64,000 nt of DNA from Tritonibacter litoralis (lineage in GTDB: Bacteria > Pseudomonadota > Alphaproteobacteria > Rhodobacterales > Rhodobacteraceae): positions 124,001 through 188,000 of the forward strand of contig NZ_WIBF01000008.1 in assembly GCF_009496005.1 (NCBI RefSeq), given 5' to 3'. The notes under the pieces are model-generated. The model had not been told where the DNA came from. It did no database searches and worked only from the letters and a program-made list of their open reading frames with translations. A program made the position numbers and the translations under genes. This document shows positions 31,819 through 49,785 of this stretch, one piece after another (position 1 is the first letter of the stretch; each line of letters starts with the position of its first letter).

Positions 31819-31823
31819 GTTCC
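31819..31823. repeat. Left target-site duplication (GTTCC)
   Basis: GTTCC here and at 49,781-49,785 immediately flank the two terminal inverted repeats. Five bases is the duplication length made by Tn7/Tn5053-type DDE transposases. Confidence 0.92.
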
Positions 31824-31848
31824 TGTGAAAACCCACATCAGTTTGCAA
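31824..31848 (+). repeat. Left terminal inverted repeat of the Tn7-like element
   Basis: 25 bp beginning TGTGAAAACCC and ending TTTGCAA. Mismatches with the right end are at positions 7, 8, 15 and 18 only. The TGT start agrees with Tn7-family ends. Confidence 0.92.
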
Positions 31849-32146
31849 TTTGACCAGCATAAATTGCAACTCTGACCACTAAAAGTTTGCCATCGCCCCT
31901 ATCGGTCGGTGGCAAATACCTTTCTGGGAGTGAAGCAAGACCGATCAGGTGTTTGGCGATTATTTCCGTTCTGACGGTTGCATTTAGTGAAACGGTCCAT
32001 TGCCGCCACGAACCAGGATTTTAGAACGCTGCGGGGCGCGACAGCACAACTAACAATCTTGGCATCGAACATCATGGGGCCTATGGTGATCCCAACAAGC
32101 TACCGAAGTGTTGTAAGATATTAGATTTGAAGAGAAGAAGACTGCG
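31842..32146. promoter_or_regulatory. Left-end internal repeats (putative TnsB sites) and leader of the cargo operon
   Basis: TTTGCAATTTGACC (31,842-31,855) and AATTGCAACTCTGACC (31,862-31,877) are tandem copies of one motif, with a degenerate third near 31,885 (TTTGCCATCGCCCC). They match the TTGCAA motifs of the right end. The rest, to 32,146, has no gene and must contain the promoter of the Dam-phosphoesterase-ATPase operon; TAAGATATTAGATT near 32,114 is a possible -10 region. Confidence 0.65.
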
Positions 32147-32947
32147 TTGAAGGCTCACCAAACGAAACCGATACGCTGGGCAGGCAGCAAGCTTCCAATA
32201 GCTTCCCGCTTGGAACGCTATATTGATTTTGACAAGGAATACTATGAGCCATTTGCAGGCTCCGCGGTGCTGTTTTTTCGTAACAGTCCGCGAGACGCTT
32301 ACCTCAATGATCTCAATGGTTCTTTGGTCGACTTCTATCGCGATGCGCGCACCCACCCTGAGAAACTCTGGAAAACTTACTCAACGCTTCCCGCCGACAA
32401 AGAGACGTACTATTGGGTGCGATCTGAATTCAATCGACTGAGGAAATGTGTTCGGCGATCTGCTTATTTTCTCTACCTCAACCACCTTTGCTTCAACGGT
32501 ATTTATCGGACAAACCTAAAAAACCAGTTTAATACGCCGTTTGGCGGAGGTCGCCTCAAACTGATTGATCAAGAAAGCTTCTTTGGCTTCTCAGAGCTGA
32601 TCCGAGATGTGGAATTTCACAGCCTTGACTTTGAGAATTTCTTGACGTTGGTGAAACCCAGAAGCGGAACAGTCTATATGGATCCGCCATATTACACCGA
32701 AGGGCAAAGAGTTTTCCGCGAATATGGGCCCAAGACGTTTTCGCACGATGATCTAATTCGTCTGTCGGATTCAGCGAGAAAATGGGCCAACAGAGGATGT
32801 CGCGTTGTTGTTTCTTACCGCGAATGTCCTGAATTTCGCGATTTATTTGGTGATTGTATTCAGGAGGAAGTCAGCGTTTCCAGAAACGTGGGGGGCTTTA
32901 AGAGTAGGCGAAATAGTCAAAAAGAACTTATTGCAGTGTTGGCGTAA
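32147..32947 (+). CDS. Dam-type (D12 class) DNA N6-adenine methyltransferase
   Basis: 266 aa with a TTG start behind GAGAAGAAG. D12-class order of motifs: KPIRWAGSKLPI (motif X), FAGSAVLFF (SAM motif I, residues 36-44), and YMDPPYYTEG (motif IV, DPPY at 179-182). Such enzymes methylate adenine in short palindromes; the target is unknown. It is the first gene of a tight operon: its TAA is followed at once by the ATG of the metallophosphoesterase. GC is lower than backbone. In context I infer it protects self DNA for the following nuclease-like genes, but it could also be an orphan methylase. Confidence 0.9.
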   Translation: MKAHQTKPIRWAGSKLPIASRLERYIDFDKEYYEPFAGSAVLFFRNSPRDAYLNDLNGSLVDFYRDARTHPEKLWKTYSTLPADKETYYWVRSEFNRLRKCVRRSAYFLYLNHLCFNGIYRTNLKNQFNTPFGGGRLKLIDQESFFGFSELIRDVEFHSLDFENFLTLVKPRSGTVYMDPPYYTEGQRVFREYGPKTFSHDDLIRLSDSARKWANRGCRVVVSYRECPEFRDLFGDCIQEEVSVSRNVGGFKSRRNSQKELIAVLA

Positions 32948-34186
32948 ATGAAATTTCTCATAATTAGCGACATCCATGCAATGTCAAAGGATCTTCTCAA
33001 CTTAACGGAAAGCTCCCAATCGAAACCTGGCAGCAGCAGTATCGGCGGCTACAATGGATCTACGCGGGGCAGTGTCTACATTGAAGATCGCACGACAAAG
33101 GCAAACCGGCTACTCGCTGTCCCAGAATACCTGATAGATGCTGGCTTGAATCAGGACATCGACTTTCTAATTTGCCTCGGTGACATGGCTCATCAATGCA
33201 AGAGAGGGGTACTTCAGTTAATTTGGCAGCAGCTGAATGACATCGCCAATGATCTTAGTATATCAAATATTTGCGCGGTCAGTGGAAACCATGATGTTGC
33301 TTCACATGAAGTCGATTTTCAGAACGGATCGCCAGATTCGATACTGAAGAATTTGCGCCCTCCTTTCCCGATGGCTGATCCCGAACTTCGAAGGGATTAC
33401 CATGGCAACCAATTCGCGGTTATCGAAGAGGGGGATGTGGGATTGGTTCTTGTCGATACTACTTCGCTAATTGGATACCAAGGACAAAGGAAAGCTGACC
33501 TGTGGAACAAAGGCTTTATCAGTAACGAGTTAATTAGCGGAATAAGAGCGAGCATCACCTCTTCAGACTGTAGCGCGTTCGTCATCGCAATGCACCATCA
33601 CCCCACGAGAGTGCACAAGCTCCAGGATGTTGAAACAGATTACATCGAAAACGGTGATAACTTCCTTACGATGCTTCAGGATACTGGTAAGCCGTGCTTC
33701 CTACTCCATGGACACAAGCATTTTGTGAATTTTCGACGATATAATGAGCGTCAAAACTCGCCATGGATTTTCTCGGCATCCAGCTTAGCCGCCACTCCTT
33801 ATCCTGGAATGCAGGAAAGATATAAGTGCCAGTTCCACATACTGGATTTCGCATTGAACCCAAACACTAAAGAAATATCCGGGCAGATAGCGAGCTGGGA
33901 CTGGGTCGCAGGTCAATGGGAAAAAGCTGGGTCGACAGGAATGACCCATTTAATTGGATTTGGCCGTCAATCCTCTCTCAAGGACATGGCGGAAAAGATT
34001 AGCTCCGTTGTTTCGGAAGGTGGGACACTGCGAGGTAAGGGTGCGTTTGATGAAGTCCCCGATCTAAGATACCTGACACAAGATGATATTTTCGATCTTC
34101 AGAAGCTACTGAAAGAAACTCATTCCGTTGAGATGATTGCCTCGCATGGCGTTCAGAAGTTTGCTTTTTATGCGGAGGATGACTGA
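32948..34186 (+). CDS. Calcineurin-like metallophosphoesterase with C-terminal extension
   Basis: 412 aa. All five metallophosphoesterase blocks are present: D8-x-H10 in LIISDIHAMS, GDMAHQC, SGNHDVAS, MHHHPTRV and LLHGHKHF, so the dinuclear metal site should be intact. After ~residue 280 comes a ~130-residue extension with no motif I recognise. The fold covers Mre11/SbcD nucleases, cyclic-nucleotide phosphodiesterases and protein phosphatases; the substrate cannot be assigned. Sits between the Dam-type gene and an AAA ATPase gene with no gap upstream and a TGATG overlap downstream, so the products are made together and may form a complex. Confidence 0.88.
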   Translation: MKFLIISDIHAMSKDLLNLTESSQSKPGSSSIGGYNGSTRGSVYIEDRTTKANRLLAVPEYLIDAGLNQDIDFLICLGDMAHQCKRGVLQLIWQQLNDIANDLSISNICAVSGNHDVASHEVDFQNGSPDSILKNLRPPFPMADPELRRDYHGNQFAVIEEGDVGLVLVDTTSLIGYQGQRKADLWNKGFISNELISGIRASITSSDCSAFVIAMHHHPTRVHKLQDVETDYIENGDNFLTMLQDTGKPCFLLHGHKHFVNFRRYNERQNSPWIFSASSLAATPYPGMQERYKCQFHILDFALNPNTKEISGQIASWDWVAGQWEKAGSTGMTHLIGFGRQSSLKDMAEKISSVVSEGGTLRGKGAFDEVPDLRYLTQDDIFDLQKLLKETHSVEMIASHGVQKFAFYAEDD

Positions 34187-36000
34187 TGTCCGAAGCCTCG
34201 ACCGCTTACAATGCGCGAAACAGTGATCCCAAACAAATCGCTCGATCGTTTGTGAAGCCAACTGATTTCGATAAGATCATCGGGTTTCAAAGCAAGGTAC
34301 TGGTGGGACCCAGGGGAATCGGAAAAACAACGATCCTCAAGCTCCTAACGCCTTCGGGACTCCACGAACTCAAGAAGCGCCCTGCTTTCAAAGATTTCAA
34401 GCTGGACCACGTTCCGTTATACATTCCTGCTGACACACTTTGGAAAGGTGAAGCCAGTGCCTTCGAAGGCATGCAAAGTTTGGGCCGCTCAAGCATAAAC
34501 GCAGAAACTGTTCGGTTTGTTCAGAACGCGTTGTTTGTTGATTACTGTCTTTATGAAGTTATCGCGTCGGTTCAAGATGCAGCAGAGATCGCATGCGAGT
34601 ATGGTTCGGAAAAGCCGGATTGGTGCATTGATATTTCTCCTTCGGTCGAAGCAAAGATCTGCGAGAACTGCGCCGATTTTTGGGGTTTGCCAACGAGGCC
34701 GAAGTCCTTTTTGGGCCTACGCCTTGCCCTCCTCAAGCGGCAAAACAGAAGGTCAGCCCTGATAAACTCCCTTGATGATCCCGACTTTTCCCGCATTGAG
34801 GCTGAAGAGCCGTTGGACTTGTTTATCATGCTGCAGGGATTCTTTACGATCATGGAAGACCTGACCGGCGTTAGGAAGTGGGCTCTCCATTTTGACGAGA
34901 TGGAAATTGCACCGCAGTTCATCTTGGCATCAATTTATGAGCGTTTGCGTTCGTTTGACAGGCGTGCGGTCATCAAGTTCTCGTTGTTCCCGTATATTGA
35001 CTTTGTCAAAGAGAGTGAGAGTGCCCGCATCAGCCCAAGAGAAGGACATGACTTCGAAACCATTACATTGAGTGGAAAATTCAAGAACGAAAGCTACCAG
35101 TTTTCTTCTGAGTTGGTCTCCAGGATTTGCGAAGGGCAAGGACTCAAGGCCACTGATTTCATCGAGTATGTGAACTCTGCAGCAGATCAGACTACACTGG
35201 CGTTTGACAAGAACGGTCATCGCAAGAGGAAGTACCAGGCAATTTTTCGAAGCTTGGCAAAGAAAGATACATCGTTCGCCGCGCACCTCAGCGACAATGG
35301 GATAGAGATACCAAGAATTCCACAATACACGGAGCACGATAGAGCACCTTCAGTTAGGAAATTGGGAGGGATTTCTGAGTTTCGCAATCATTACCTTCGG
35401 TCTTTCACTAAAGGGCAAGGCCGAAAGCTCTCCAGAAAATCATACCACTACTTTAATAATTACGATCAGCTCCTCAAGTTGACTGAGCAAAACCCGAGAG
35501 CTGTCCACTTCTATTGTGATGACATCATTAAGTGTATGACTGATGGCAAGCCGGCTCAGGGTGCATTGAAAAGTGTCATTGAAAAAAACGTGAACAGGTT
35601 TAGAGCGCTTGTTGCCACCCAGTCCGTCCCATTTGATCCCATCAACAACAAAATGTCGCATGTTCTTGATGTAGTCGACAACTTTGGGGAAGCTCTTTAC
35701 ACGAAGCTGATCTCGAGTGCGTTTTCTCCTGAACCGCAGCTCGCGTTCAAAGTTGCGCAGAGCATGGATGACTATTCCCTTAAGATATTGGGAATTGCCG
35801 TAAACACGGGAGCGATAATTCTCGATGAATCCAATCAGCGAGGGCTCCATTTGGATCTGCGAGGCTTACGATTTAGAGTTTCTTACCAGCTTTCACCTTG
35901 GTACCCCCTTCCAACGCAGACAGGCAGTGAAAGAAAGATCTCCCACCTTGGGTTCCATAAGCCAACTGCCCAGACAGCTTTATTCGACTGGGAGGACTAA
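34186..36000 (+). CDS. ORC/Cdc6-like AAA ATPase
   Basis: 604 aa. Walker A is VGPRGIGKTTILKLL (P-loop 41-48), reached after an N-terminal ARNSDPKQIARSFVKPTDFDKI lead typical of ORC/Cdc6-like P-loop proteins of accessory regions. Walker B is ALHFDEMEIAP (~233-243). The C-terminal 300 residues are helical with no known domain seen. It would bind and hydrolyse ATP, perhaps as sensor or loader for the phosphoesterase. Starts inside the upstream stop (TGATG) and ends 1 bp before the next ATG. Codon use is AT-richer than backbone. Confidence 0.82.
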   Translation: MSEASTAYNARNSDPKQIARSFVKPTDFDKIIGFQSKVLVGPRGIGKTTILKLLTPSGLHELKKRPAFKDFKLDHVPLYIPADTLWKGEASAFEGMQSLGRSSINAETVRFVQNALFVDYCLYEVIASVQDAAEIACEYGSEKPDWCIDISPSVEAKICENCADFWGLPTRPKSFLGLRLALLKRQNRRSALINSLDDPDFSRIEAEEPLDLFIMLQGFFTIMEDLTGVRKWALHFDEMEIAPQFILASIYERLRSFDRRAVIKFSLFPYIDFVKESESARISPREGHDFETITLSGKFKNESYQFSSELVSRICEGQGLKATDFIEYVNSAADQTTLAFDKNGHRKRKYQAIFRSLAKKDTSFAAHLSDNGIEIPRIPQYTEHDRAPSVRKLGGISEFRNHYLRSFTKGQGRKLSRKSYHYFNNYDQLLKLTEQNPRAVHFYCDDIIKCMTDGKPAQGALKSVIEKNVNRFRALVATQSVPFDPINNKMSHVLDVVDNFGEALYTKLISSAFSPEPQLAFKVAQSMDDYSLKILGIAVNTGAIILDESNQRGLHLDLRGLRFRVSYQLSPWYPLPTQTGSERKISHLGFHKPTAQTALFDWED

Positions 36001-36001
36001 A

Positions 36002-36949
36002 ATGTCTGAACCTATTTCGTGCGCAGAAAAGTCTCTTCCAAGAGTTTTGGTCGGGGCATTGGGATACGAAGCCAGGTCGTCTCAGTTTATGCTGTCAGAG
36101 GATCTGGATGTTTACCAAGAAGTTCTCGTTTTCGACTATGAAGCAGAAAACCTTCATAGCTATTTAGAGAACAAAGAGATTTACAGTAACTTATTGGGAG
36201 GTCGAGCCAAGGCGTGTTCCTCAAAGTCTGAAATTGTTCTGGAAATAGGGCGCCTTAGCCAAACCTTCCGGGATTCTGGGTTTGAAATTTCTGTTGACTT
36301 TAGCTCTTTGGACCGCGGCTTGATTGCAGATTTGGTACTGGCGATCTATAGGAACAGGTCAGTGATTAGATCGTTGGAAGTTCTGTACTTTCCACAGACT
36401 TTCTCAAAGCCAGAACTGAAATTAGAAACCGTCACCAAGTTTGGACCGATCTCGCCTGAGTTTTCCGGGTCGTCTCGGTCGAGCACTCAAAAGCTCTGCA
36501 TGATTGTTGGTGCTGGATATGAGTTTGGGAAAGTCATCGGCGCGCAAGATCGTCTTGAGCCAGATGAGATGTATGTTTTTTCTCCGGTAGGAACAGACCC
36601 TAAATTCGAGGATGCTGTAAAAAAGGCCAACTACGAGTTTGAGTTCATTGGTGACACGAAAAACGTTGTCAACTACAATCTCTCCGAGCCCGAAGAGACC
36701 TTTTCTTCATTGTTTGAATTGGTGAGGCACAAGAAATCTACCCACCGAGTGCTCCTACTGCCAATGGGACCTAAAATCCTTGCTGTTTTTAGTTTGCTTA
36801 TTGCTGTTCGGTTTCATCCAGATGTAAGAGTTTGGCATTATTCGACCCACAAATCTGGCGACCCTCAGATATCTAATGCATTTGCTTCTGGCCAAAGGAT
36901 TGCTTTGAGGTTCTCATCTGCTGCCATATTTGGAGAGCCTCAGGATTGA
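36002..36949 (+). CDS. Unrecognised protein, last gene of the Dam/phosphoesterase/ATPase operon
   Basis: 315 aa; the start at 36,002 (MSEPISCAEK) lies 1 bp after the ATPase stop and is chosen over a longer frame overlapping that gene. I do not recognise the family. It looks like two Rossmann-type alpha/beta halves: RVLVGALGYEARSSQFML (14-31) with VLVFDYEAENLHSYL, then ISVDFSSLDRGLIADLVLAIY (~96-116); the second half begins LCMIVGAGYEFGKVIGA and has LLLPMGPKILAVFSLLIAVRF (~250-270). The GYEAR, DFSSLDR and PMGPK patches are polar and look like active or ligand sites. No membrane segment. An effector or signal-sensing role is a guess from context. Confidence 0.75.
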   Translation: MSEPISCAEKSLPRVLVGALGYEARSSQFMLSEDLDVYQEVLVFDYEAENLHSYLENKEIYSNLLGGRAKACSSKSEIVLEIGRLSQTFRDSGFEISVDFSSLDRGLIADLVLAIYRNRSVIRSLEVLYFPQTFSKPELKLETVTKFGPISPEFSGSSRSSTQKLCMIVGAGYEFGKVIGAQDRLEPDEMYVFSPVGTDPKFEDAVKKANYEFEFIGDTKNVVNYNLSEPEETFSSLFELVRHKKSTHRVLLLPMGPKILAVFSLLIAVRFHPDVRVWHYSTHKSGDPQISNAFASGQRIALRFSSAAIFGEPQD

Positions 36950-37293
36950 TACATTGTGGGAACGCTCAAGGTTGTCATAGTCCGAGCCGTGCATCTCATA
37001 GTCTCCTATTTGATGGCTTTCACTTAGTACCCAAGAACTGCGTGCCGAGGGGAGCGACATCCGCAATCGACGTCTGGTTCCCATCTCTGGATCTGCGGGT
37101 TCACATTTGTAACATCCTACCGTTTCCCGCTCATTGTTGAAGCCCCGTCGGTTCAGTCGGCGGTTCCCGTGACTCCAATCTTCTCTCGAATTGGAAGCTT
37201 TGGAGGACTCGGTGCGGTTCAATCCAACACTGCCATAACGGTTGTGACACCGCTGAAAAAACAAACCTCATCAGTGCCACCTATGGATATCTC
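36950..37293. other. Gene-free gap between convergent cargo genes
   Basis: 344 bp between the four-gene operon and the convergent methylase gene. Frames on both strands code for improbable, Arg/Ser-rich sequences; I see no gene, hairpin with T tract or repeat. Confidence 0.4.
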
Positions 37294-38109
37294 CTACATA
37301 GTTGTTTGGCCCAGAATTTCAGAAAACAGGTGCACAATCTCAGACTTGCTGATCGAAGGGCAACCCGCTGTGTTTTGCCGAACTGTATCGAAGTCGATCA
37401 GTTCGAATTGTGCTCGCAGGAGACAAGGGTCGTAGTTCGCTCGCAGAAAGTAGTGCGAATTCTTGCTTCCGGCCTCGGAAAGGGATTTGATGCGTCCGGC
37501 GTTTGCGCCGACGCGCTGAAGAGCGAAGTCCGCTTCCTCGGGGGTGCAAAAAGCGAATGCGGCATGTGTGGTAGGTTTACGTGAGGCTGGCCGTAAATCC
37601 GTGCGACGCTCCCAGACTTGAAAACAAGAAGGCACCGAATACACTGCACCTTCGAAAACAAAGGCTTCGTCCGGCAGCACAAGCTCGTTGACGAAGTGAA
37701 AACGCCGATCCAATTGTCTCTGGATGCTATCCTTACGGAAGCTACGGGGCACAATGAAGGCGATAGCATCTGCAAAAGTCGCTGCCTTATTGAAGAACTT
37801 AATCGCCTTTCGTGCCACCCGACCAAATGGCGGATTCCCAATGGTTACGGTGCTGCCCAGGTCATGAGGTGGTGCCCAATGAAGAAAATCTGCTTGAGTT
37901 ATTTTTGGTCCGCGAGGCGCGATGTCGAGAGCAAGGCAAGCCTCACCAAGTTGGCTGGAAAATGCTACGGTACCAGCTGAAGGTTCCAAAACAGTATCAA
38001 ACTTGTGATGCGCTAACTGGTCCTCGGAAAATGCAATGCATTGGCGGGCGATAGTCGGGATGGTGTAAAATTGGTCGAGGCTGCGGGCGTCGGTTGAGCT
38101 GGTGGTCAC
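37294..38109 (-). CDS. N6-adenine DNA methyltransferase-like protein (NPPF type)
   Basis: 271 aa with a GTG start at 38,109 and SD CAGGAG 7 bp upstream. N-terminal SLDQFYTIPTIARQCI is the FYT-type motif X lead seen in gamma-class adenine methylases; SAM motif I is VLEPSAGTVAF (LEPSAG 41-46) and the catalytic motif is GNPPFGRVARKAI (NPPFG 92-96). A C-terminal ~130 residues lack a clear target recognition domain, so it may be an orphan methylase of the transposon rather than half of an R-M pair; no nuclease gene is coupled. It is convergent with the upstream operon. The SD lies in a hairpin (38,117-38,139). Confidence 0.82.
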   Translation of the reverse strand: MTTSSTDARSLDQFYTIPTIARQCIAFSEDQLAHHKFDTVLEPSAGTVAFSSQLGEACLALDIAPRGPKITQADFLHWAPPHDLGSTVTIGNPPFGRVARKAIKFFNKAATFADAIAFIVPRSFRKDSIQRQLDRRFHFVNELVLPDEAFVFEGAVYSVPSCFQVWERRTDLRPASRKPTTHAAFAFCTPEEADFALQRVGANAGRIKSLSEAGSKNSHYFLRANYDPCLLRAQFELIDFDTVRQNTAGCPSISKSEIVHLFSEILGQTTM

Positions 38110-38116
38110 GGTTGGT

Positions 38117-38139
38117 CTCCTGAGTTCTGAGCTCAGGAG
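38117..38139 (-). promoter_or_regulatory. Hairpin that covers the methylase ribosome-binding site
   Basis: On the mRNA strand CTCCTGAG, a 7-nt loop, and CTCAGGAG form a perfect 8-bp stem. The AGGAG is the only good SD for the GTG start 7 bp downstream, so folding would block initiation. Seen directly; regulation is inferred. Confidence 0.6.
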
Positions 38140-38622
38140 GTCGGTCCGAAATACTAAGTTCAGAAACGCTGAGTTGGATTGCTCCGATTAGGGAACTGCA
38201 TTTCTGCAAGCTGAAGATCATGGTGAAGCCGACCGAAATCTACCGCTTCTGTTGTATCTGGGACGCGCCCGGAAAATGCAGAGCCGCGATCCAGCAAAAG
38301 ACCAGAAAAACCAGACTGTGGACGCCGGCTAAGCGCCAGGGAATGTCCGAGTTCCGCTCCTCTGGCAAATGGCATGAGAGGCCCAGAGCCGACTTTGGGA
38401 GCGTCGTTCGGTTTCTGTGGTTAGCCCGCTTTCTGGACGTTCGCCGCAAACCCGAAACCCCTACTTGGTCGAATTGACAGGTCGAGGACGTATTAGCCGT
38501 TTGCTATCGCGTAAAAAATGGCCGCTCGTACCTGTTTTACCAGCGATCCGCAATGCTTACATGTAGTCAAACAGAGCACTCCAAGCGAGCCACTCACACC
38601 ATTTTTGAAACGGAGAGAATTG
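38140..38622. other. Gene-free stretch upstream of the methylase
   Basis: About 480 bp. Short frames exist on both strands (for example near 38,220-38,477) but lack ribosome sites and credible composition. It should contain the methylase promoter on the minus strand. Nothing else seen. Confidence 0.4.
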
Positions 38623-39126
38623 ATGATCAACGATGTTGCTCCATTGGGCGGTCAGACAATCGGCAAAGCCGCAAGTCGCGAAGATGCCTGGTGGCTTTGA
38701 TGCCGCTATGGCCTAAGGCCATTTCCTTTGAATGACGCTTCAGCGGTAAGTTTAGAGGATGCTGAGAATGGAGCGAAGGTGTGGACTGTTCCCTGCGAGC
38801 ATACCCAATACCCATATGATCGTGCTGCCTTTGAAAATCGGCGTCGTGACGGCTTAGCTACATTAGAGAACGGCCTTCCAGCATGGCCGGTTGCTGAAGA
38901 AAATGGGATAGCCTTCCAAACCTTCAAACAACGGCTCAAACGAGGCTGGTCGGGCGAAAGAGCAGCAACCGAAGGAGTACGGGAGATAGCGCATAATCCG
39001 GATGATGAATGGGAAGTAATTGCGCTTGAGAACGGGCTATCTGTCCGTGCATTTCGCAGCCGTGTGCAGGCTGGTTGCCCTGAAGCCATCGCCGCAACAA
39101 TGGGGCTAAGTTGGCGAAAGTGGTAA
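38623..39126 (+). pseudogene. Small HTH-repeat protein gene interrupted by one in-frame TGA
   Basis: An ATG at 38,623 with GGAGAG 5 bp upstream opens a frame that meets TGA at 38,698-38,700 (after ...EDAWWL) and then stays open, same frame, to 39,126. The distal part carries two similar units: LENGLPAWPVAEENGIAFQT then FKQRLKRGWSGERAATEG, and ALENGLSVRAFRSRVQAG then CPEAIAATMG. Such (G-I/L-S/A-x-x-x-F-x-x-R-x-x-x-G-W/C) units are short HTH-like motifs of phage and plasmid proteins. Either a nonsense mutation (TGG to TGA would restore Trp) made a pseudogene, or the distal part (possible TTG at 38,728) is translated alone. Function unknown. Confidence 0.55.
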
Positions 39127-39413
39127 GACGCGCTCTTAGCAGGCGCACCTGGCCTTATCTGGTCATTCTGGCTCATCGAAGTAAGAGCCTGGTTTGAGCC
39201 CTCACTGACCATCTCGGCGCTTTGGGCGGTCGACGGCAATGGGCAGATAGCGACCTTTGCAAAGTGAAGTGAACAGCCCATACTGGGCATTCCTTTGTGG
39301 CTGTAACGAATGTCTGCCTATGGAACCCAATCGGCTTTTTGGGACGGCACGGTGAACGACCCGTCCCCTAATTAGTGTTGGCAGCTACCGATCCGTATCA
39401 TCTTTTGAATTCA

Positions 39414-40121: not shown

Positions 40122-40177
40122 TGAATTTGCTCCTTTGTTCGGGGGCGCTGGAAAGGCGGGATAAATCGCGACGCGGT

Positions 40178-40399: not shown

Positions 40400-40445
40400 T
40401 GCTGTCTCCATTTAACACGGCCCCACCATTGGTGACCGATATCGT

Positions 40446-41992: not shown

Positions 41993-42382
41993 ATGCCCCA
42001 AGGAATCCAAACAACGATTGTCCGCGACGCCATCGCACGAGGGACCCTGCTATTTGAACAAAGGGAAGCTTCGCTTTGGTTCAAACTGGTTACCAAGGAA
42101 TGCGCGGTGTGTGGGCCGCTGAACGTTCGGCAGGATTGGGCCGAATGTTCGCCAGGCGTGATGCCAGTTATCGACCGAGTGAGCTTGATGTCAGGCGACT
42201 GTATCTCAGCGGCCTTTCTTCATGAGCACCCCGAGCGCGCATCCTATTGGTATGATTTACTTCAAGAGAGACTTGCGCCTGAGAAGGTTTTCCAGTTTTG
42301 CGAACGGAGAGGCTGGTCTGTAACTTCCGTCAAATCAAAACCATTGGAGCTGGAAGAAATGGGTATGCTGGCCGCGGGATAA
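41993..42382 (+). CDS. Hypothetical protein (129 aa)
   Basis: I do not recognise it. It starts at ATG 41,993 with AGGACAGG upstream and stops at TAA 42,382. It has ECAVCG and several further cysteines, charged helices toward the C-terminus (HPERASYWYDLLQERLAPEKVFQFCERRGW), and no membrane segment. Same strand as the XRE-ImmA pair but 258 bp away, so separately expressed. Composition is coherent enough to be a real gene. Confidence 0.55.
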   Translation: MPQGIQTTIVRDAIARGTLLFEQREASLWFKLVTKECAVCGPLNVRQDWAECSPGVMPVIDRVSLMSGDCISAAFLHEHPERASYWYDLLQERLAPEKVFQFCERRGWSVTSVKSKPLELEEMGMLAAG

Positions 42383-42614
42383 TGAAACGGTGAGAGTGAT
42401 GGCGCCGTGAATACTTATTCATCCGTAGGTTTTTCGGGACGCAACTGCACCGTTATGCCGCTTAGAAGCAAAGCGTCAGCAAACCTGCGTCTGGCGCATG
42501 GCAGGAGAAATCTGCAATCAGCGGTCGTCATCATTGGCCTCCAAGGATGGAGATCTGGCCATGGAACATGCGGTGTCGCTTCTGCCCGTCATCGGCATGT
42601 GATACAGATTTCAC

Positions 42615-42911
42615 ATGAGTGATGAGAGATTCAAGTTTTCAGACCGAGTGAAACAGAAAGCGTTTAGCCGTGCTCGAGATGAGGCCCGGCTCAATTCTGG
42701 GGACGTCACCTCATCAGAGCTGCGCAAATAGAATGCGTTCATCAAGGCCTCGGGATTTGCCAAGAAGAAGATCGGGTTCTCTCCTAAATGCCGACCCGAA
42801 AATGGCGACAAGTACTTTACGGACCGATCTGCTGAAATCAAACGAGTTTCAGGAGCGAAGCCAGGGGGGGCGGTGATGCAGATTGAGCGCTGGCTGGAAA
42901 CCCGTCTTTGA
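42615..42911 (+). pseudogene. Small ORF interrupted by one in-frame TAG
   Basis: From ATG 42,615 the frame reads MSDERFKFSDRVKQKAFSRA and on to ...SSELRK, meets TAG at 42,729-42,731, then continues in the same frame NAFIKASGFAKKKIGFSPK... to TGA 42,909-42,911. Both halves are Lys/Arg-rich and similar in composition, suggesting a ~98-codon gene with a nonsense mutation. No strong RBS. Function unknown. A second short overlapping frame follows to 43,041 (VFDGLALQSKDFGNVLLAAV...), perhaps another remnant. Confidence 0.45.
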
Positions 42912-43044
42912 TGGGCTTGCGCTGCAGAGTAAAGATTTTGGTAACGTGCTTTTGGCGGCAGTCTTGGGCAAAGCCGAAACAACTATATCGAGCAAGGATG
43001 CGATCGCTGATCTGTGCCACGGATGCCTTGCAGGAGGTTAGAGA

Positions 43045-43236
43045 ATGACAGGTTTCGAAATCGCATTCAGTGTCTGCGTGGCGTTCACTACTGCTGCTAT
43101 TTTGCTATATTTGCGCGGCTTGGTCAGAACCTCTGGTCGCGACCCTATTGACGATCCAGAGCGTGCTAAGCGGTTTCTCGAAACCGCGCCATACCATCTG
43201 CTTGAAACCTCCAGCGGGGCTACTCGCCAACACTGA
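43045..43236 (+). CDS. Small single-pass membrane protein (63 aa)
   Basis: ATG 43,045 with AGGAGG 7 bp upstream, the best SD in this part of the cargo. Residues 3-26 form one hydrophobic helix (FEIAFSVCVAFTTAAILLYL), followed by a polar cytoplasmic tail (RDPIDDPERAKRFLETAPYH). Unknown family; could be a membrane partner of a defence or toxin module, but nothing adjacent proves it. Confidence 0.55.
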   Translation: MTGFEIAFSVCVAFTTAAILLYLRGLVRTSGRDPIDDPERAKRFLETAPYHLLETSSGATRQH

Positions 43237-43956
43237 CTGTGCTTGACGGAAAGAGCGGATCTGAGCGCAAACGAACCCGGCGCCGTTTGCAGGCAACATT
43301 TATGCGCAGTGGAGCGCGGGTAAACCCCGCATTCGTATCCAGCAAAGGTCCTTTACTCCACGACAAAAGCTTGGGGGGGTAAGATGATGCTGCCCAGCTG
43401 TCGTGGTGAGCTCACCTCGCGGCAAAGGAAAACCGCTGATTGTTACCAGGTTCACCGTTCAGCTCGAGCCATATGAAAACCGGTATTATGTCGACCCAGA
43501 CCATCAGTCGTAACTAAGCAAATTAGCTTCAGGAATGCACGAATCAATGCGTTGATTCGGCACGACTTATTGGTTCACGCAGCGTTTCTATTAAAAGCCG
43601 CCGAAAGACCGGGATGGTAGGGTAAGGCGAGGGTATAGGGGAAAACCCCTATAAATCGCCCTGAAATTGGGGATTCAAACCATGTTCCGCCCCGAGTCAA
43701 ATTTATTGTTTGTTGATTGGTTTTGTAGGGTGCATACCCGCGCCCGAAACAAGAAGGGGCAACCTCAAGACGCTACAATCTCAACAAAAAAACGCGCGAA
43801 CTGCGCCAACAGTCCACGCGTCTTTAGGAACTGCCAAAGGCGACTCGCAATGTAAAGACTGTGTGCCACCAAACACACGCAGCCTCAAGTTCCTTTGGCA
43901 GAAGACAACACGACACAACTGACACCGCTTTTAGCTATGCGGTGAACAGTGGCGTC
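43237..43956. other. Gene-free region upstream of tnsA with two inverted repeats
   Basis: 720 bp. At 43,626-43,660 a long hairpin is nested: GGCGA ... TATAGGGG AAAA CCCCTATA ... TCGCC, with perfect 8-bp inner arms (43,634-43,641 and 43,646-43,653). At 43,831-43,840 and 43,892-43,901 CTGCCAAAGG is inverted, 51 bp apart, 56 bp or more before tnsA. The second pair is well placed to be an operator for the transposition genes. No credible gene on either strand. Confidence 0.55.
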
Positions 43957-44661
43957 ATGCCAAATGAGGCTACATTGATCACTTTTACAGAAACGGGTGG
44001 GCTGAAGAGACCGGCGCCATCTATTGCGGAGCGAAAGCCTGCACGGTCTTCCAGAGGTCATTCCTCAGGATCTATGACGGTATTGAACGACGACGGATAC
44101 CGGGTCCTATATTACGAATCTAAATTGGAACGGTGTTGCGCCACAATCATGGATGCAAGCCCGGCAATTCTGCGGATTCATGAGCAGGTCGCCTTTGGCT
44201 GGCTCGACAGGGGAGCCGCGCGAACTCACTACTTTGACTTTGTGGTTACCAAAAAAAGTGGGGGGCGTGCAGCTCTTATTGTTAAACCGGAGAAGCGAGC
44301 CCACAAACCGGCTTTTCTGAAAGAAGTCAGAGAGATTTCTGAGCAGGCTGTTCAAATTGGTGTGGTTGAAGAGGTCTTTGTCTACACAGATGAGAGCTTC
44401 TCAGATGTTCAGCTAAGAAATGCGGAGCTGATCCGGAGCGTTCGCGAGGTTGATATTGAAGCCGATAGGGTGGTGGCTGACTTAATCAAAGGGCTCCAAG
44501 GGAATGTCAGGATCCAAGAGTTGGTGGCTGCTTCGCGTCTTGAGGCCAGGGGGTTTCGCGCTGTCGTGCGGCAGATTGGAACCGGATCTTTGGAGTATGA
44601 CGAGGGGGTATCCATTTCACGTAGTCTGGAAGTCGCGAAGAGCAGGGAATGCAACACATGA
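43957..44661 (+). CDS. tnsA: TnsA-like transposon endonuclease
   Basis: 234 aa from ATG 43,957. The restriction-endonuclease-like core is readable: YYESKLERC (E54/E58), then EQVAFGWLDRGAARTHYFDFVV (D94) and GRAALIVKPEKRA (K110). Spacing of D94 to K110 approximates the D114...K132 pair of Tn7 TnsA. TnsA cuts the 5' ends of the transposon so that, with TnsB, it moves by cut-and-paste. The stop overlaps the ATG of tnsB (ATGA). A GTG at 43,942 is an alternative start. Confidence 0.88.
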   Translation: MPNEATLITFTETGGLKRPAPSIAERKPARSSRGHSSGSMTVLNDDGYRVLYYESKLERCCATIMDASPAILRIHEQVAFGWLDRGAARTHYFDFVVTKKSGGRAALIVKPEKRAHKPAFLKEVREISEQAVQIGVVEEVFVYTDESFSDVQLRNAELIRSVREVDIEADRVVADLIKGLQGNVRIQELVAASRLEARGFRAVVRQIGTGSLEYDEGVSISRSLEVAKSRECNT

Positions 44662-46769
44662 CATTCGCTTCACCTGCTGCATTCATTGGCGCATTTGATC
44701 GAGTTTCGATCGGAAATGTGCGATATCGCGTCCATCAGGCTGTCGTCGACGGGTTTGTTCTTCAAGAGATCGAAGGGAACAAGCTTTCACAGAAATTCAC
44801 ACATGCTGAGATTCACGCCAGAGCAAAAGTCGGTGATGTAAAGGTTGAACAACACTTCTTTGCTCCACACATCCAAGCGAAATTGAAAGCCAACCAGGAC
44901 TTTGATTTGGGGCTCTTGAGCAAAGAGCATTTGGAATTTGTTTCCAATAAGTTGGCTGTTGTTCAAGCCGTTCGCGTGTTGCGAAGCCGGGGAAAGGTTA
45001 GCCTTTCTCATAGGTCTTTGAAGTCAGCCTTGCCAGAAATCATGATGTTGGCTGATGAGCTGCGAGAGGAAAAACGCAAGAAAAGAAAATATGCTGGAGG
45101 GAAGAGGACGAGTCTTGAAAAACCGTGTTCAAAAACCGTTTGGAACTGGTACACGGCCTACAGGGACTTTGGGGTTGCTGGCCTTGTTGATAAACGGTCA
45201 AGGTCGGGTCAGCGAGGTAGCCGCCTACACCCTGAAGTGAACAAACTTATGTTAGAGTGCGTTGGCGCGTACAAAAATCCAGACCGGCCTACAAAAGAGC
45301 AAGTGATTCAAGACACGCAAGATGCGGTCATGGCTGCCAACGAAAAGCGGGCTTTGGATGGTCTTGCACCTCTAAAAATTCCATCGCGAAACACTATCAT
45401 GCGGCGAATTAACAGCATACCTCCCTTTGAGGCTGCCGTCTGTCGACATGGTCGTGCACAAGCCATTTCCGAATTCTATCCCGTCGGCAGGGGGCTCGTC
45501 CGCAGTAGGCCCCTTGAGCGATTGGAGATGGACGATTGGACTGTGGATTTGTTCACCATCGCAAAGCAGATGGGCATTTTCCCGCTATTGCCACCAGAGT
45601 TGCAGGAGGCCATTGCACTTGATGGAAAGAAGAGCAGATGGCACCTTTGCGTTGCTATCTGCGGCACCACCAGATGCATCCTCGGAATGACTCTTTCAAG
45701 CTCACCGGCGACACAGGCCGCTCTTGAGTGCCTCCATATGGTCGTACGTGAAAAGGAACAGTGGGCTGATGCCGTTGGCGCAACTTCTCCATGGGAAATG
45801 GGTGGATTGCCAGAGCTCTTAGTAACGGATGCTGGATCCCAATTTGACAATGCGCGCATTGAAGTAGCCGTTCATGACCTTGGCATAACGGCAGATATCC
45901 CGCCGCAAGGCCTTCCACAGTTGCGAGCAACGATTGAACGTTTGTTTGAGACAATCGGAAGCAACCTGTTGCCAAGATTGTCAGGGCGGTCATTTTCAAA
46001 TGTGATGCAGCGGGGCGATTATCCGTCAGAAGAACGTGCCGTTTTGTCCGTGCATGATTTTTCTCGGATTTTGGTGCGGTGGGTTGTTGATGTTTATCAC
46101 AACACTCCACACGCAGGGTTGTCTGGAGAGACACCACTGGAGTGCTGGAAACGTCTATCCGAGGAATATGGTGTTCGCCCAATGCCAGACCGGCGAAGCC
46201 GCCGTATCGCTTTCGGTGTCACTAAGAAACGCGAGCTTTCAAAAAAGGGAGTTCAGGTATTGGGGGTCCACTACAACAGTGATCGCTTGATGCAATACAT
46301 GCGTAACGAAACCAATCGCACGCTCAATGTGCAATGGTTGGCCGAAGACATCGGTGAGGTAGAGGTGCAGCTGGGGGCTGACTGGTATTCGGTCCCTGCG
46401 GTTCTACCGGGGTTCAAAGGCGTAAAAGCGAGCAACTGGCTTGCCGCTTGCGAGAGGATCAGGAAAGGAAACCCGCAGGCGAGGAAGGTATCCGAAGAAG
46501 CGATTTCCACGGCGCTCAAGGAAATCAAACATTGGAATACTGCTGCGGGTGAAAAAGCTGGGATCGTAAATGAAGGATGGACCAGCGACTTGATCGAGAA
46601 GTTGGAGGAAAATTCTTTCCTCGGATTCCAAGTCGGAGATCCAAGTTCCTCGACTTCAGAACATGGTTTGTTGGGAGCGCGAGTAGAGGTTCCTGACGGC
46701 CCAAAGTTGGAGGGGAACGAATCCACCCGTCCAGTCCTGCCTACCAGCAACGAGGATTGGAAATTCTAA
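44658..46769 (+). CDS. tnsB: TnsB-like DDE transposase
   Basis: 703 aa from ATG 44,658, which overlaps the tnsA stop; an in-frame ATG 9 bp upstream is possible. N-terminal HTH-rich DNA-binding part (~90-260, with SKTVWNWYTAYRDFGVAGLV), RNase-H-like core with D near EMDDWTVDLF (~residue 292), D in LLVTDAGSQF (~391) and E in RATIERLFETIG (~427), i.e. D-D(35)E, then a beta-barrel Mu-C-like domain (VQWLAEDIGEVEVQLGADWY). The C-terminal tail would contact TnsC. It should bind the TTGCAA motifs of both ends and join 3' ends to target DNA, producing the 5-bp GTTCC duplication. Confidence 0.95.
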   Translation: MTFASPAAFIGAFDRVSIGNVRYRVHQAVVDGFVLQEIEGNKLSQKFTHAEIHARAKVGDVKVEQHFFAPHIQAKLKANQDFDLGLLSKEHLEFVSNKLAVVQAVRVLRSRGKVSLSHRSLKSALPEIMMLADELREEKRKKRKYAGGKRTSLEKPCSKTVWNWYTAYRDFGVAGLVDKRSRSGQRGSRLHPEVNKLMLECVGAYKNPDRPTKEQVIQDTQDAVMAANEKRALDGLAPLKIPSRNTIMRRINSIPPFEAAVCRHGRAQAISEFYPVGRGLVRSRPLERLEMDDWTVDLFTIAKQMGIFPLLPPELQEAIALDGKKSRWHLCVAICGTTRCILGMTLSSSPATQAALECLHMVVREKEQWADAVGATSPWEMGGLPELLVTDAGSQFDNARIEVAVHDLGITADIPPQGLPQLRATIERLFETIGSNLLPRLSGRSFSNVMQRGDYPSEERAVLSVHDFSRILVRWVVDVYHNTPHAGLSGETPLECWKRLSEEYGVRPMPDRRSRRIAFGVTKKRELSKKGVQVLGVHYNSDRLMQYMRNETNRTLNVQWLAEDIGEVEVQLGADWYSVPAVLPGFKGVKASNWLAACERIRKGNPQARKVSEEAISTALKEIKHWNTAAGEKAGIVNEGWTSDLIEKLEENSFLGFQVGDPSSSTSEHGLLGARVEVPDGPKLEGNESTRPVLPTSNEDWKF

Positions 46770-47753
46770 ATGTCACACGACCAACTCGGTACAGTTTCGG
46801 ATGATGTGGCGGAAGCTATCGACATGCTCGCCCGCACTCATGTGGAAACACCAAGAATTAGGCAGTTGTCGACCGCGTTTCAGCGACTATTCCGTGCTGA
46901 TACTGGTATTGGCGATCGGCTGAAACCGCGCCGTTTCAGCGATGGTCTGGAAACCCATGGGATTGCTATTATTGGCGCTTCAGGGAGTGGCAAGACTGAA
47001 CTGCTTCACCACTATTTCAAGAGTCATCCTTCGCTTCAGGCCGCTCCTGGTGAAAAGTGGTCGCGCTACTTGCATGTTACGGTTCCAAGCCCGGCAACGT
47101 TGAAGAGCCTTGGCTTTGAGTGCCTTAAGTTGCTTCATTATCCGAATGTTTCTGATCGTAGCGAGAAGTGGAAGATATGGGACCTCGTTAAGTTTCGGTT
47201 GAGCAAAGCCGAGATCCAAGTTTTGTGGATCGACGAGGCACATGACCTCTACAAACCGCAGGAACGGGAAGATCTGTTGAATACCCTGAAATCGCTGATG
47301 CAGGGTGAGAAGGCCGTTGTTGTGGTATTGTCCGGAACTGAGAAACTGTCGGATATCCTGAAAGAAGACAGGCAGGTTGGAAGGCGTTTTGCGAAAATCT
47401 ATCTGCCTGAGGTGACCTTGGCTACCGATGGTGAGCAGTTGGCGAGGCTGACCACAGCCTATGCTCAACGAGTGGGCTTGGAGGCCAGCCCATCGGAGGA
47501 GTTGATACAGCGACTTATACATGCCGCCAGGAATCAATTTGGGCTTTCGGTTGAAATCGTAATCGGGGCCATCGAGTGGGCTCTCCTCGCGGGAAAAGGC
47601 ACACTGAATGTCCAGGATTTCGCTGAGTATTGGGCTGCGCAGGAAGGATGCAAGCCGGACAAGAACGTATTCCTTGTGCGAAATTGGGCCGAAATCGAAT
47701 TGGATGAACGCGCCGGGGAAGCGCCTGTTCGGAAGAGGAGCAGGCGAAAGTGA
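46770..47753 (+). CDS. tnsC: TnsC/TniB-like AAA ATPase
   Basis: 327 aa. Walker A GIAIIGASGSGKTELLHHYF (P-loop 69-76), Walker B IQVLWIDEAHDLY (WIDE 153-156), then the sensor region VVVVLSGTEKLSDIL. TnsC assembles on target DNA selected by TniQ and activates the transposase. Starts at the base after the tnsB stop and ends in a GTGA overlap with tniQ. Confidence 0.95.
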   Translation: MSHDQLGTVSDDVAEAIDMLARTHVETPRIRQLSTAFQRLFRADTGIGDRLKPRRFSDGLETHGIAIIGASGSGKTELLHHYFKSHPSLQAAPGEKWSRYLHVTVPSPATLKSLGFECLKLLHYPNVSDRSEKWKIWDLVKFRLSKAEIQVLWIDEAHDLYKPQEREDLLNTLKSLMQGEKAVVVVLSGTEKLSDILKEDRQVGRRFAKIYLPEVTLATDGEQLARLTTAYAQRVGLEASPSEELIQRLIHAARNQFGLSVEIVIGAIEWALLAGKGTLNVQDFAEYWAAQEGCKPDKNVFLVRNWAEIELDERAGEAPVRKRSRRK

Positions 47754-49591
47754 CTGGCGTTCTTTATCCGCTACTTCCTCTAAAGGAGCAGGAAACCGCG
47801 TCGTCTTGGGTTTGTCGTCTTGCAGACTTTCACACTGGTGGTCCGTTGTTGTCCTTCCTGAATGACCAAGCTTTGTCCGCAAAAGATGTTAGCTTGGGTA
47901 AGAGAGATAACATGCTGAGATTGTCAGATGTGACCGGCGTCGCATTTGAGGAACTTGTTTCGAGGCAACCAGAACAAGTGGCGAAAAGGCGATATCGCTT
48001 TCGCAACGAAGAGTTTTCTACAGAGTTCATGGTTGGGATGCGAACAGCGTTTTGCGCTGCTTGTATACTTGAAAATGATGTGTCCGGTTCTCACCGCCGA
48101 GTGGGCATCTGGCCATGGCTTTTCGCCTCTGTTCGGACCTGTGAGAAACATACTTCAGCTCTACAATACGTTTCGGTCAAACACTGGGCGGGGAAATTAC
48201 GAAACCTTCACGAAGTTGCCCCGGAGGGACAGGCATTATTCCAACTTGCGGACAGTGCGCGCCAGCGTAGTTGCTCTCCGCTGCAGCGATATCTGCTGAA
48301 TCGGCTCGAAGGTGGGAGCGGACCGGATTGGATGGATAATCAGAGCTTGGAGCAGGCGTGCTGGGCCACAAAAATGCTGGGGGTTTTGGACGGATGGGGG
48401 ACAAAACCTGATTTGAACGAATTTGACGATCATGATTGGGATCAAGCTGAGCGGCTTGGCTACGAAATTGCTCAAGCGGGCGAGCAGTCCATTCGAGATG
48501 TGTTTTCGGATGTTTTGCGAAGAGCAGCAATTCGTCGAGGCAAGGCTGGTCCGTCCGGCGTGTTCGGATTTCTCTACGAGAAGCTGCAATCGAAAAAGCT
48601 CAATAGAGATCCGGGCCCTATTCGGAGTGTTCTACGCGAGTTCATCTTGGACGAGATGGTGGTAAGTGTGGGTTTCAATTTGCTTGGAGAAGAAGTTCAA
48701 AAGACCCGTCGCCATCATGCGCACTCCTTGGCGGTCAAATACAAGCTGCATCCTAAGACCGTTCACCGGGCGTTGGTTGCTCAAGGCCTGATTTCTTCAC
48801 ACGATCTGGACCACATGTCAGGTCTGGAAACCTTTGACGCTGCCGAAGGCGAAGAAATGGCGCGATCCATTTGCCGAGCTATTCCTGTGTCGAAGTTGGC
48901 CAAATACATGAATGCGACGCGACCGCAGGTGGATATTTGTCTGAAGGAGGGATTTCTTCAAAGTTTGGCCGGAGCTGAGATGAAGGTTGCTCAGGTTTTG
49001 GAAGGCGTTGACGCTGAAAAAGTTGATTGCTTCCTTGCTCGGTTGTCAAACGAGGCGCGTATAGTAGGCGTGCCAGCGCGCGGGCTTGCAAACATTCCAC
49101 AGGCGGCGCAGGAGGCAAAACGATATTCCGGTGACATCTTGAGGCTTTTGCTTGAAGGGAAGCTCACAAGGGTAGAACAGAAACAGGGAACGAAAGGCTA
49201 CCTTGCGATTTTGGTGTGCCCAAAAGAAGTAAGGAAGTTGCTGCCGCGAGATACCTCGCATTTACCCTTGTGCAAGGCGGAGGCAGCAGCGTTGCTGGGC
49301 GTCAATTTGGTGGCTCTTGATGCTTTGTTGGGATTGAAAGGCGGTGTTCCGCTTCTCCGATGGGTCAAAGACACTTTACCAGGGCCTATCAAAGTCAGAA
49401 TTGAAAATGAGGAAGTGGAGCGGTTTCTAACAACCCATATCACTCTTGGTGAGTTACAGAAACGTTCTGGATTGCATCAGCAGACGATGCGCAAGCTGTT
49501 GCGCCAGAAGTGTATCGAGCCCCTCTATGATCCAAAGAAGATTAGAGTGTACCTCTACGACAGGGGCGAGGCGTTGGCTGCGATCCAGTAA
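47750..49591 (+). CDS. tniQ: TniQ/TnsD-like target selector (613 aa)
   Basis: GTG start in a GTGA overlap with tnsC. N-terminal TniQ domain: ETASSWVCRLADFHTGG..., zinc ligands C102-x2-C105 (FCAACI) and C131-x2-H134 (RTCEKHTSAL). The protein is long for a plain TniQ (often 300-400 aa) and similar to TnsD: after ~200 it has several HTH-like stretches, including HHAHSLAVKYKLHPKTVHRAL and HITLGELQKRSGLHQQTMRKL near the end. This suggests sequence-specific binding of an attachment site, here plausibly the 3' end of nrdJ. That target is inference from the insertion position. Confidence 0.9.
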   Translation: MTGVLYPLLPLKEQETASSWVCRLADFHTGGPLLSFLNDQALSAKDVSLGKRDNMLRLSDVTGVAFEELVSRQPEQVAKRRYRFRNEEFSTEFMVGMRTAFCAACILENDVSGSHRRVGIWPWLFASVRTCEKHTSALQYVSVKHWAGKLRNLHEVAPEGQALFQLADSARQRSCSPLQRYLLNRLEGGSGPDWMDNQSLEQACWATKMLGVLDGWGTKPDLNEFDDHDWDQAERLGYEIAQAGEQSIRDVFSDVLRRAAIRRGKAGPSGVFGFLYEKLQSKKLNRDPGPIRSVLREFILDEMVVSVGFNLLGEEVQKTRRHHAHSLAVKYKLHPKTVHRALVAQGLISSHDLDHMSGLETFDAAEGEEMARSICRAIPVSKLAKYMNATRPQVDICLKEGFLQSLAGAEMKVAQVLEGVDAEKVDCFLARLSNEARIVGVPARGLANIPQAAQEAKRYSGDILRLLLEGKLTRVEQKQGTKGYLAILVCPKEVRKLLPRDTSHLPLCKAEAAALLGVNLVALDALLGLKGGVPLLRWVKDTLPGPIKVRIENEEVERFLTTHITLGELQKRSGLHQQTMRKLLRQKCIEPLYDPKKIRVYLYDRGEALAAIQ

Positions 49592-49612
49592 ACTGCCCAA
49601 GCTAATGACAGA

Positions 49613-49637
49613 GCCGCGCGTAAGCGCGGCTTTTTTT
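49613..49637 (+). terminator. Rho-independent terminator of the tns operon
   Basis: GCCGCGC (49,613-49,619), GTAA loop, GCGCGGC (49,624-49,630), seven T residues. It lies 21 bp after the tniQ stop, still inside the transposon. Confidence 0.93.
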
Positions 49638-49650
49638 GTGCTTGGCGACA

Positions 49651-49762
49651 GCTTAGTTGCAATGTTCTGTTGGTAATAATTGCAAAATAGCCAAGAGTTC
49701 TTACTGATCTATTTTCGGTAAGTATCTGATTTTATGGGGTTTAGGTGTTGGGCTGTTGCAAA
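49651..49762. repeat. Right-end internal repeats (putative TnsB sites)
   Basis: Reverse-strand motifs ATTGCAAC (49,656-49,663), TTTGCAATTATTACC (49,672-49,686) and TTTGCAACAGCCC (49,750-49,762) match the left-end consensus TTGCAA followed by C-rich bases. The outermost is part of the terminal inverted repeat. More, wider-spaced sites on one end than the other is usual for Tn7-type elements. Confidence 0.65.
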
Positions 49763-49780
49763 GTGTTGTGGGCATTCACA
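49756..49780 (-). repeat. Right terminal inverted repeat of the Tn7-like element
   Basis: On the reverse strand it begins TGTGAATGCCCACAACAC and ends TTTGCAA. It matches the left end at 21 of 25 positions. Confidence 0.92.
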
Positions 49781-49785
49781 GTTCC
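49781..49785. repeat. Right target-site duplication (GTTCC)
   Basis: Second copy of GTTCC, directly after the right inverted repeat. Confidence 0.92.

Follow-up and report, generated by a model that had tools for sequence, protein, structure and literature searches.

A complete Tn7-like transposon beside nrdJ in Tritonibacter litoralis, very probably homing to the 3′ end of that gene

Element A and its insertion site

The window analysed here is a 64,000-nucleotide stretch of the Tritonibacter litoralis genome. It holds nrdJ, the gene of a B12-dependent ribonucleotide reductase, and directly downstream of it a transposon that we call element A (31824–49780, 17,957 bp; coordinates are those of the window). 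Genomes of comparison are denoted by G-numbers (G303, G028 and so on). The insertion and the transposition operon are made up of the following features.

29518–31803, + strand: nrdJ, B12-dependent ribonucleotide reductase, the target gene, left intact (Pfam Ribonuc_red_lgC 1.9e-131; TIGR02504 NrdJ_Z 5.1e-180)
31804–31818, no strand: 15-bp spacer from the nrdJ stop to the target duplication (read from sequence)
31819–31823, no strand: GTTCC, 5-bp target duplication, nrdJ side (read from sequence)
31824–31900, no strand: nrdJ-side (right-type) end, TGTGAA and three packed TnsB-type sites (31843, 31864, about 31886)
43861–44661, + strand: tnsA; E90 and D126 invariant (12 aligned); NCBIfam TnsA-like 9.8e-07, below cut-off; profile match to Tn7 TnsA (1f1z/1t0f), 5e-5
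44649–46769, + strand: tnsB, DDE transposase; D394 and E430 invariant (13 aligned); Pfam match below cut-off; profile match to Tn6677 TnsB, 3.7e-58
46770–47753, + strand: tnsC, AAA+ regulator of the TniB family (Pfam TniB 5.3e-22)
47750–49591, + strand: tniQ, 613 aa, predicted target selector of TnsD size (Pfam TniQ 7.5e-14; C102, C105, C131 and H134 invariant, 14 aligned)
49612–49637, + strand: G+C-rich hairpin and T run, likely operon terminator (read from sequence)
49655–49780, no strand: tniQ-side (left-type) end, one terminal site, a ~70-bp gap and two further sites
49781–49785, no strand: GTTCC, 5-bp target duplication, distal side (read from sequence)

nrdJ closes with a TGA stop codon, and the first base of element A lies 20 bp past it (the 15-bp spacer plus the 5-bp GTTCC). 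The terminal 25 bp are identical at 21 of 25 positions between the two ends, opening with TGTGAA at 31824 and closing with TTCACA at 49780. The motif TTGCAA, present 21 times in the window, occurs at 31843 and 31864 in the end on the left of the window and at 49657, 49680 and 49756 in the end on its right. The four transposition genes are intact reading frames in a single orientation, with the end of tniQ 189 bp from the far end of the element; tnsA has no Pfam match. An earlier note, made from the letters of this stretch alone, had described a complete element resolved to the base 15 bp past nrdJ, with 25-bp inverted ends, a GTTCC duplication, TTGCAA repeated within each end, and an intact tnsA-tnsB-tnsC-tniQ operon with its own terminator. 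Reading of both junctions, of the open frames and of the hairpin with its T run bore out all of this.

The boundaries were also queried in a sample of 3′ nrdJ flanks from 92 genomes in 55 genera (80 genus-spanning genomes, 11 congeners and the window). In a strict inverted-repeat scan of these flanks, the element A pair showed 4/24 mismatches and an exact duplication. At a loose cut-off, the scan returned some match in 9/92 regions, against 2–7/92 with shuffled tails; only element A and the pair in G028 (2/24 mismatches, exact duplication) stood above the shuffled control, and the boundaries of all other elements required looser end matching.

Comparison with Tn7 and related systems

In Tn7, which inserts about 25 bp past glmS, the end with packed sites is the right end and adjoins glmS, and tnsA adjoins the gene-side end. 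In the window, as in G138, G254 and G128, three sites are packed into ~70 bp of the nrdJ-side end, while the tniQ-side end has one site, a ~70-bp gap and further sites; this layout is not plain in the ends of G028 and G303. By convention, the right end is that upstream of the transposition genes (PMC11406308). Because the nrdJ-side end of element A both has the packed sites and lies upstream of tnsA, it is the right end on both counts, and the polarity of the element is Tn7-like. The earlier note had called the orientation unlike that of Tn7, which holds for the place of the cargo, between the nrdJ-side end and tnsA, but not for the polarity. In G297 (locus L090), tnsABC-tniQ is inverted after nrdJ and tniQ is nearest to it.

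Element A and Tn7 share TnsA, TnsB and TnsC with a large TniQ/TnsD, a target duplication of 5 bp, an insertion point shortly after the stop codon of a conserved gene (~25 bp for glmS, 20 bp here), and a packed-site end beside that gene with the operon reading away from it. Unlike Tn7, which reaches glmS through TnsD, element A sits at nrdJ and is not Tn7 itself; ~12 kb separate its gene-side end from tnsA, with tniQ lying close to the far end, and its TnsA is only distantly related to that of Tn7 (5e-5). Tn7-like elements have been defined by TnsB and TnsC together with TnsA and/or TniQ (PMC11406308); element A encodes a DDE-type TnsB and an AAA+ TnsC together with both. Its ends are of the form TGT...ACA, each with several predicted TnsB-type sites in a layout of its own, and its target duplication, GTTCC, is of 5 bp. 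TnsE, which gives Tn7 its second, plasmid-directed pathway, was not named among the proteins tested in general family scans, none of which was aimed at it.

Fixed chromosomal sites are also used by the Tn7-like elements Tn6022 (comM) and Tn6230 (yhiN) (PMC11406308, Table 1), which resemble element A in this respect and differ in target gene. Insertion of Tn6022, which uses TnsF with TniQ, inactivates comM (PMC11406308, PMC10293859), whereas element A leaves nrdJ whole. CRISPR-associated transposons employ TniQ/TnsD to home to att sites at parE, tRNA genes or glmS (PMC11406308), as proposed here for element A at nrdJ. Unlike them, element A has no recognised Cas protein among the genes tested with Pfam and PADLOC, which returned a CARF6-like protein only; Rfam matched no family over 31000–51000, and direct repeats of at least 20 bp within 120 bp are absent from the element. 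On these scans, a CRISPR-associated transposon, with its Cas genes and CRISPR array, was set aside as an identity for element A.

The earlier note knew of no named Tn7-like element that uses nrdJ, and the literature searched agrees. A search by title and start of abstract, with supplements and subscription papers outside its scope, found nrdJ nowhere presented as a Tn7 site; the main texts of PMC10293859 and PMC8649781 contain neither ‘nrd’ nor ‘ribonucleotide’; and the matching passages of PMC2864759 and PMC9120033 are unrelated. nrdJ is apparently an undescribed homing site for Tn7-like elements.

Linkage of TniQ to nrdJ

Across the order, the window TniQ matched in 105 of 292 genomes and NrdJ in 281 of 292. 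Linkage was tallied by hand among the matches listed, using TniQ rows with an nrdJ row listed on the same contig (30 rows) and omitting those with no nrdJ row listed in the genome or with nrdJ on another contig. Eighteen of the 30 rows lay within 60 kb 3′ of nrdJ (the window's own, G206, G263, G220, G201, G100, G038 twice, G098, G138, G050, G254, G028, G159, G181, G285, G234 and G033; the nrdJ match of G206 is partial). The other 12 lay farther away (G070, G270 twice, G105, G051, G181, G157, G285 twice, G252, G042 and G192), and none lay within 60 kb on the 5′ side. The earlier note had suggested tabulating where TniQ relatives sit, and this tally favours the link to nrdJ that it proposed. tniQ reads in the direction of nrdJ in 14 of the 18 linked rows and against it in four (G159, G181, G285 and the second of G038). 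Among the 27 TniQ rows listed with E < 1e-60, 12 were on the nrdJ contig and 11 of these were linked, the exception being G070. Genome comparison indicates a fixed site and controlled orientation for element A, as in Tn7-like elements generally, with the inverted G297 operon as a deviation.

Across the 55 genera, conservation of the 3′ codons of nrdJ runs as far as the stop and ends there; this conservation allows recognition, yet is expected of any coding end. On plasmids, a TniQ relative was present in 37 records and nrdJ in 44. Plasmid p420573 of Paracoccus seriniphilus carries two TniQ genes 24–28 kb 3′ of nrdJ. Three of the 15 plasmids listed with a TniQ relative were inspected in detail.

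Exact insertions and recurrent ends at nrdJ

Eight elements besides element A have exact 5-bp duplications and place their nrdJ-side end 19–27 bp past the stop. The strict scan delineated G028 (CGTAC). A looser end test, applied to 17 elements, delineated six: G220 (ACCGT), G254 (GGCCA), G128 (CCAGA), G262 (TGTGG), G038 (TACAC) and G267 (CCTCC), of which G262, G038 and G267 have weak end similarity. That test omits G206, G263 and G108, in which the nrdJ stop was not located; G108 was read by eye (GATTA), and its nrdJ-side end begins with TAT rather than TGT. For G128, G262, G267 and G108 the two ends lie on different contigs and were joined. The far end falls 194–250 bp past the tniQ match in the six elements of the looser test, 189 bp past tniQ in element A and about 3.4 kb past it in G028. 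Exact 5-bp matches in G039 and G260 were taken as chance, since they lie 849 and 787 bp past the tniQ match and have poor end similarity.

In the 92-genome sample, the 120-bp stretch that starts 8 bp past the nrdJ stop matched across genera in 29 genomes, which fall into seven clusters. The listed alignments start 13–31 bp past the stop in five clusters and at ~30–75 bp in the other two (9 and 2 genomes). Matches persisted at +200, +400, +800 and +1200 bp (19/92, 10/91, 10/90 and 8/87), as the sharing of longer remnants would predict; at +2, +3 and +5 kb there were none (0/86, 0/84 and 0/83; 0/253 samples). The end type of element A itself follows nrdJ in two other genera, G097 (93% over 214 bp) and G105 (85% over 74 bp). 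Any tns or tniQ match was found in 17 of the 92 flank stretches, and all four genes in 8. The metagenome-assembled genome PAPN01000034.1 (Rhodobacteraceae SP161) carries, in order, nrdJ, a different end type, a remnant of element A and a further end; the remnant comprises the last 92 tniQ codons (91%) and the element A far end (96.4% over 447 bp). A TniQ search of genome contigs returned a single relative. Taken together, these comparisons suggest that element A belongs to a widespread assemblage of nrdJ-homing elements.

Lone nrdJ-side ends seem common. At L100 and L121 (G097 and G105), ends of the element A type stand directly after nrdJ, and within 20 kb neither tns nor tniQ is matched. An origin of lone ends from IS21 or another insertion sequence family was considered and rejected: Pfam found neither istA nor istB in 20 open reading frames (ORFs) from ten lone-end flanks, and the one rve/HTH_21 transposase, in G042, we take to be IS3-type. 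Two further tests contributed little. Internal repeats marked 21/92 nrdJ flanks against 2–6 of 84–92 flanking windows (shuffled mean 2.65), a weak signal on which we do not rely, and a TniB family search was non-discriminating, matching in 33/33 genomes and 13/14 controls, mostly through general AAA proteins.

An older element end beyond element A

The sequence to the right of element A bears on what preceded the insertion.

49787–50024, no strand: B′, the end of an older, partly lost element, displaced by element A (similarity to G303)

Positions 49787–49857 are 95.8% identical (71 bp) to the sequence directly after nrdJ in the congener G303, and 49790–50024 are 76% identical to a second copy in that genome. 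With element A and one GTTCC removed, the window reads nrdJ, 21 bp and then TGTGGAACGACACATAAGGTGACACTT. In G303, an inverted copy of the B-type end lies 20.3 kb on, with tnsABC-tniQ in between, and the next sequence, TTGTGGCGTTTCAC..., is that which follows nrdJ in G301; we read the G303 layout as nrdJ, B and another end. Because TGTGGAACGACACATAAGGTGACACTT directly follows nrdJ in G303, with tnsABC-tniQ between the inverted copies, the site that received element A most likely consisted of nrdJ and, after it, the end of the older element B′. The earlier note had taken the reconstructed junction for an empty site. It is instead nrdJ joined to another element's end (TGTGGAACGACACA..., found directly after nrdJ in G303). 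It had also proposed a comparison with related genomes that have an empty site. A 424-bp probe matched nrdJ in 12 of 18 genomes of the genus (own included), and in the 11 congeners so matched we see no clean empty site.

A similar arrangement recurs elsewhere. Among 28 elements, eight have sequence resembling the nrdJ flank of another genome in the 1.5 kb that follows the tniQ match, against 0/159 distinct control segments (from 20 loci only). This difference fits repeated insertion beside nrdJ with the newest element innermost, an order of events that we infer.

Beyond B′ lie a type I restriction system, a transposase that is presumably IS3-type, going by its rve/HTH_21 domains, and then aconitase; the window tns proteins have no match there. 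The type I restriction-modification genes (50155–57062: hsdM, an AAA protein, hsdS and hsdR) were probably carried as cargo by the older element. Positions 49985–50037, some 200 bp into the B′ end, resemble the 3′ end of a tRNA and are 98% identical to a site on contig C5 of the same genome. The stretch is matched in 18/18 genus genomes searched (own included), and a diverged copy lies inside the second B-type end of G303. ARAGORN found no whole tRNA in the window; the stretch is possibly an old att site of another island.

TniQ lineages linked to nrdJ

A tree of 53 TniQs (fragments G033 and G181b omitted) was used to map the label ‘linked to nrdJ’, carried by 22 rows. The label required 11 changes, against a shuffled mean of 17.1, and was as low in 0/500 shuffles. 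The clade of the window TniQ has 24 rows, 11 linked to nrdJ, 10 broken by contig ends and three elsewhere, and in all 11 linked rows tniQ is co-directional with nrdJ. Linked rows outside it form a second group (G303, G028, G302, G234, G304 and G297) and a third (G300, G038b, G159, G285 and G181); the third has a near-copy, G225a, on a contig other than that of nrdJ, and in G159 and G285 no tnsA, tnsB or tnsC was recognised in 20 kb. A single clade of the 17 linked rows of the first two groups, set against 20 unlinked rows, was rejected (p-AU 4.7e-5), this grouping having been named after inspection of the tree. On these sequences, use of nrdJ is clustered on the tree and not confined to one TniQ clade; it may have been gained separately, or once with losses.

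The earlier note had named close TniQ homologues at unrelated sites as what would tell against homing to nrdJ. That expectation is answered in part: three of the 24 clade rows do lie elsewhere, and relatives in this clade are only ~30–37% identical to the window TniQ.

Proposed mechanism and alternatives

We consider it very probable, from the sequence comparisons above, that element A is a complete Tn7-like transposon homing to the 3′ end of nrdJ. The 613-aa TniQ would act like TnsD: we infer that it binds nrdJ DNA, at the conserved last codons, and recruits TnsC. TnsC would then place TnsA-TnsB, and the packed-site end would be joined ~20 bp past the stop, leaving nrdJ unharmed. Because the address lies in the gene, later arrivals would insert between nrdJ and older elements; tandem arrays would result, the newest member adjoining nrdJ and many members decaying to lone ends.

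Several results weigh against this reading. G070, G199 and G260 have TniQs of the window clade away from nrdJ, and the nrdJ flank of G070 looks empty; for its off-site element, the target was not found and the ends were not resolved. Eleven of the 17 elements put through the looser end test lack a credible duplication, these three off-site elements among them. Of the 15 plasmids listed with a TniQ relative, only that of P. seriniphilus also has an nrdJ match; the other 14 lack one, and two of them match TniQ over 98–99% at 30% identity. Twenty of the 29 shared-sequence flanks have no tns or tniQ match in their stretch, 7 of these 20 stretches being shorter than 7 kb. A PDB search with the TniQ profile matched no solved structure.

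Some of these points would suit a passive hotspot, a flank of nrdJ that tolerates many kinds of element with no recognition of nrdJ by TniQ. The ends found at nrdJ are of several types and the TniQs there of at least two deep groups, three TniQs of the window clade sit elsewhere, and the records of most listed plasmid relatives lack nrdJ. We nonetheless regard passive tolerance as improbable, given the tight offset of 19–27 bp in nine elements with exact duplications, the shared direction of tniQ and nrdJ in every linked row of the window clade, and the lack of any TniQ row within 60 kb on the 5′ side among the 30 listed same-contig rows. That the elements target resident transposon ends rather than nrdJ, with tandem arrays as the outcome, is suggested by the 8/28 tniQ-side flanks that match another nrdJ-type flank and by the insertion of G028 near sequence like the nrdJ-side end of G297. 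The constant distance, however, is to the nrdJ stop, and 20/28 flanks match no other end, in a comparison that is blind to any end type absent from the 92-genome library and to far ends lying over 1.5 kb beyond tniQ; we hold targeting of resident ends to be a very unlikely account. Hardly credible is a conserved host control element after nrdJ that merely resembles transposon ends. End-like sequence without recognised tns genes is common there, but its type varies between congeners and is common to different genera, and inverted copies with exact 5-bp duplications stand at the far end of several elements; for element A this account is already contradicted.

Homing to nrdJ, our preferred reading, would add this gene to the short list of Tn7-like homing sites. 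More broadly, we think it reasonably likely that the nrdJ 3′ end is a landing site for more than one deep TniQ lineage in Rhodobacterales, as glmS is for Tn7 hosts, and that new elements enter at a fixed offset next to the gene and push older ones outward, so that the array records the acquisition of defence genes in order of time. Such stacked arrays could yield relative ages of defence-gene gains. The elements would also offer a natural panel of divergent TniQs aimed at one short, highly conserved coding stretch, a panel in which comparison and domain swaps could reveal how the C-terminal regions of TnsD/TniQ read DNA. The nrdJ 3′ end is also a possible gene-insertion site for Rhodobacterales.

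Cargo of element A

About 12 kb of cargo lie between the nrdJ-side end and tnsA. Some ORFs remain unnamed; those with matches are listed below.

32147–32947, + strand: D12-class adenine methyltransferase (Pfam 1.7e-40)
32948–34186, + strand: calcineurin-like phosphoesterase with winged helix-turn-helix (wHTH; Pfam)
34186–36000, + strand: ORC/CDC6-like ATPase (Pfam PF24389 4.9e-117)
35825–36949, + strand: CARF6-like protein (PADLOC 1e-40; no Pfam match)
37294–38109, − strand: type II methyltransferase-like (PADLOC 1.7e-41; no Pfam match)
39414–40121, − strand: ThsB-like TIR protein (PADLOC 2.3e-116; Pfam TIR_2 1e-14)
40558–41734, + strand: CapH-like HTH and CapP-like M78 peptidase (PADLOC 1.1e-21 and 1.2e-53)

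Going by these matches, the cargo likely includes anti-virus genes; defence cargo has been reported for Tn7-like elements (PMC8649781). The ThsB-like TIR gene (39414–40121, 2.3e-116) has no ThsA recognised among the neighbouring proteins tested. The phosphoesterase-wHTH, ORC/CDC6-like ATPase and CARF6-like genes stand in a row (32948–36949) and are a candidate for an undescribed defence set.

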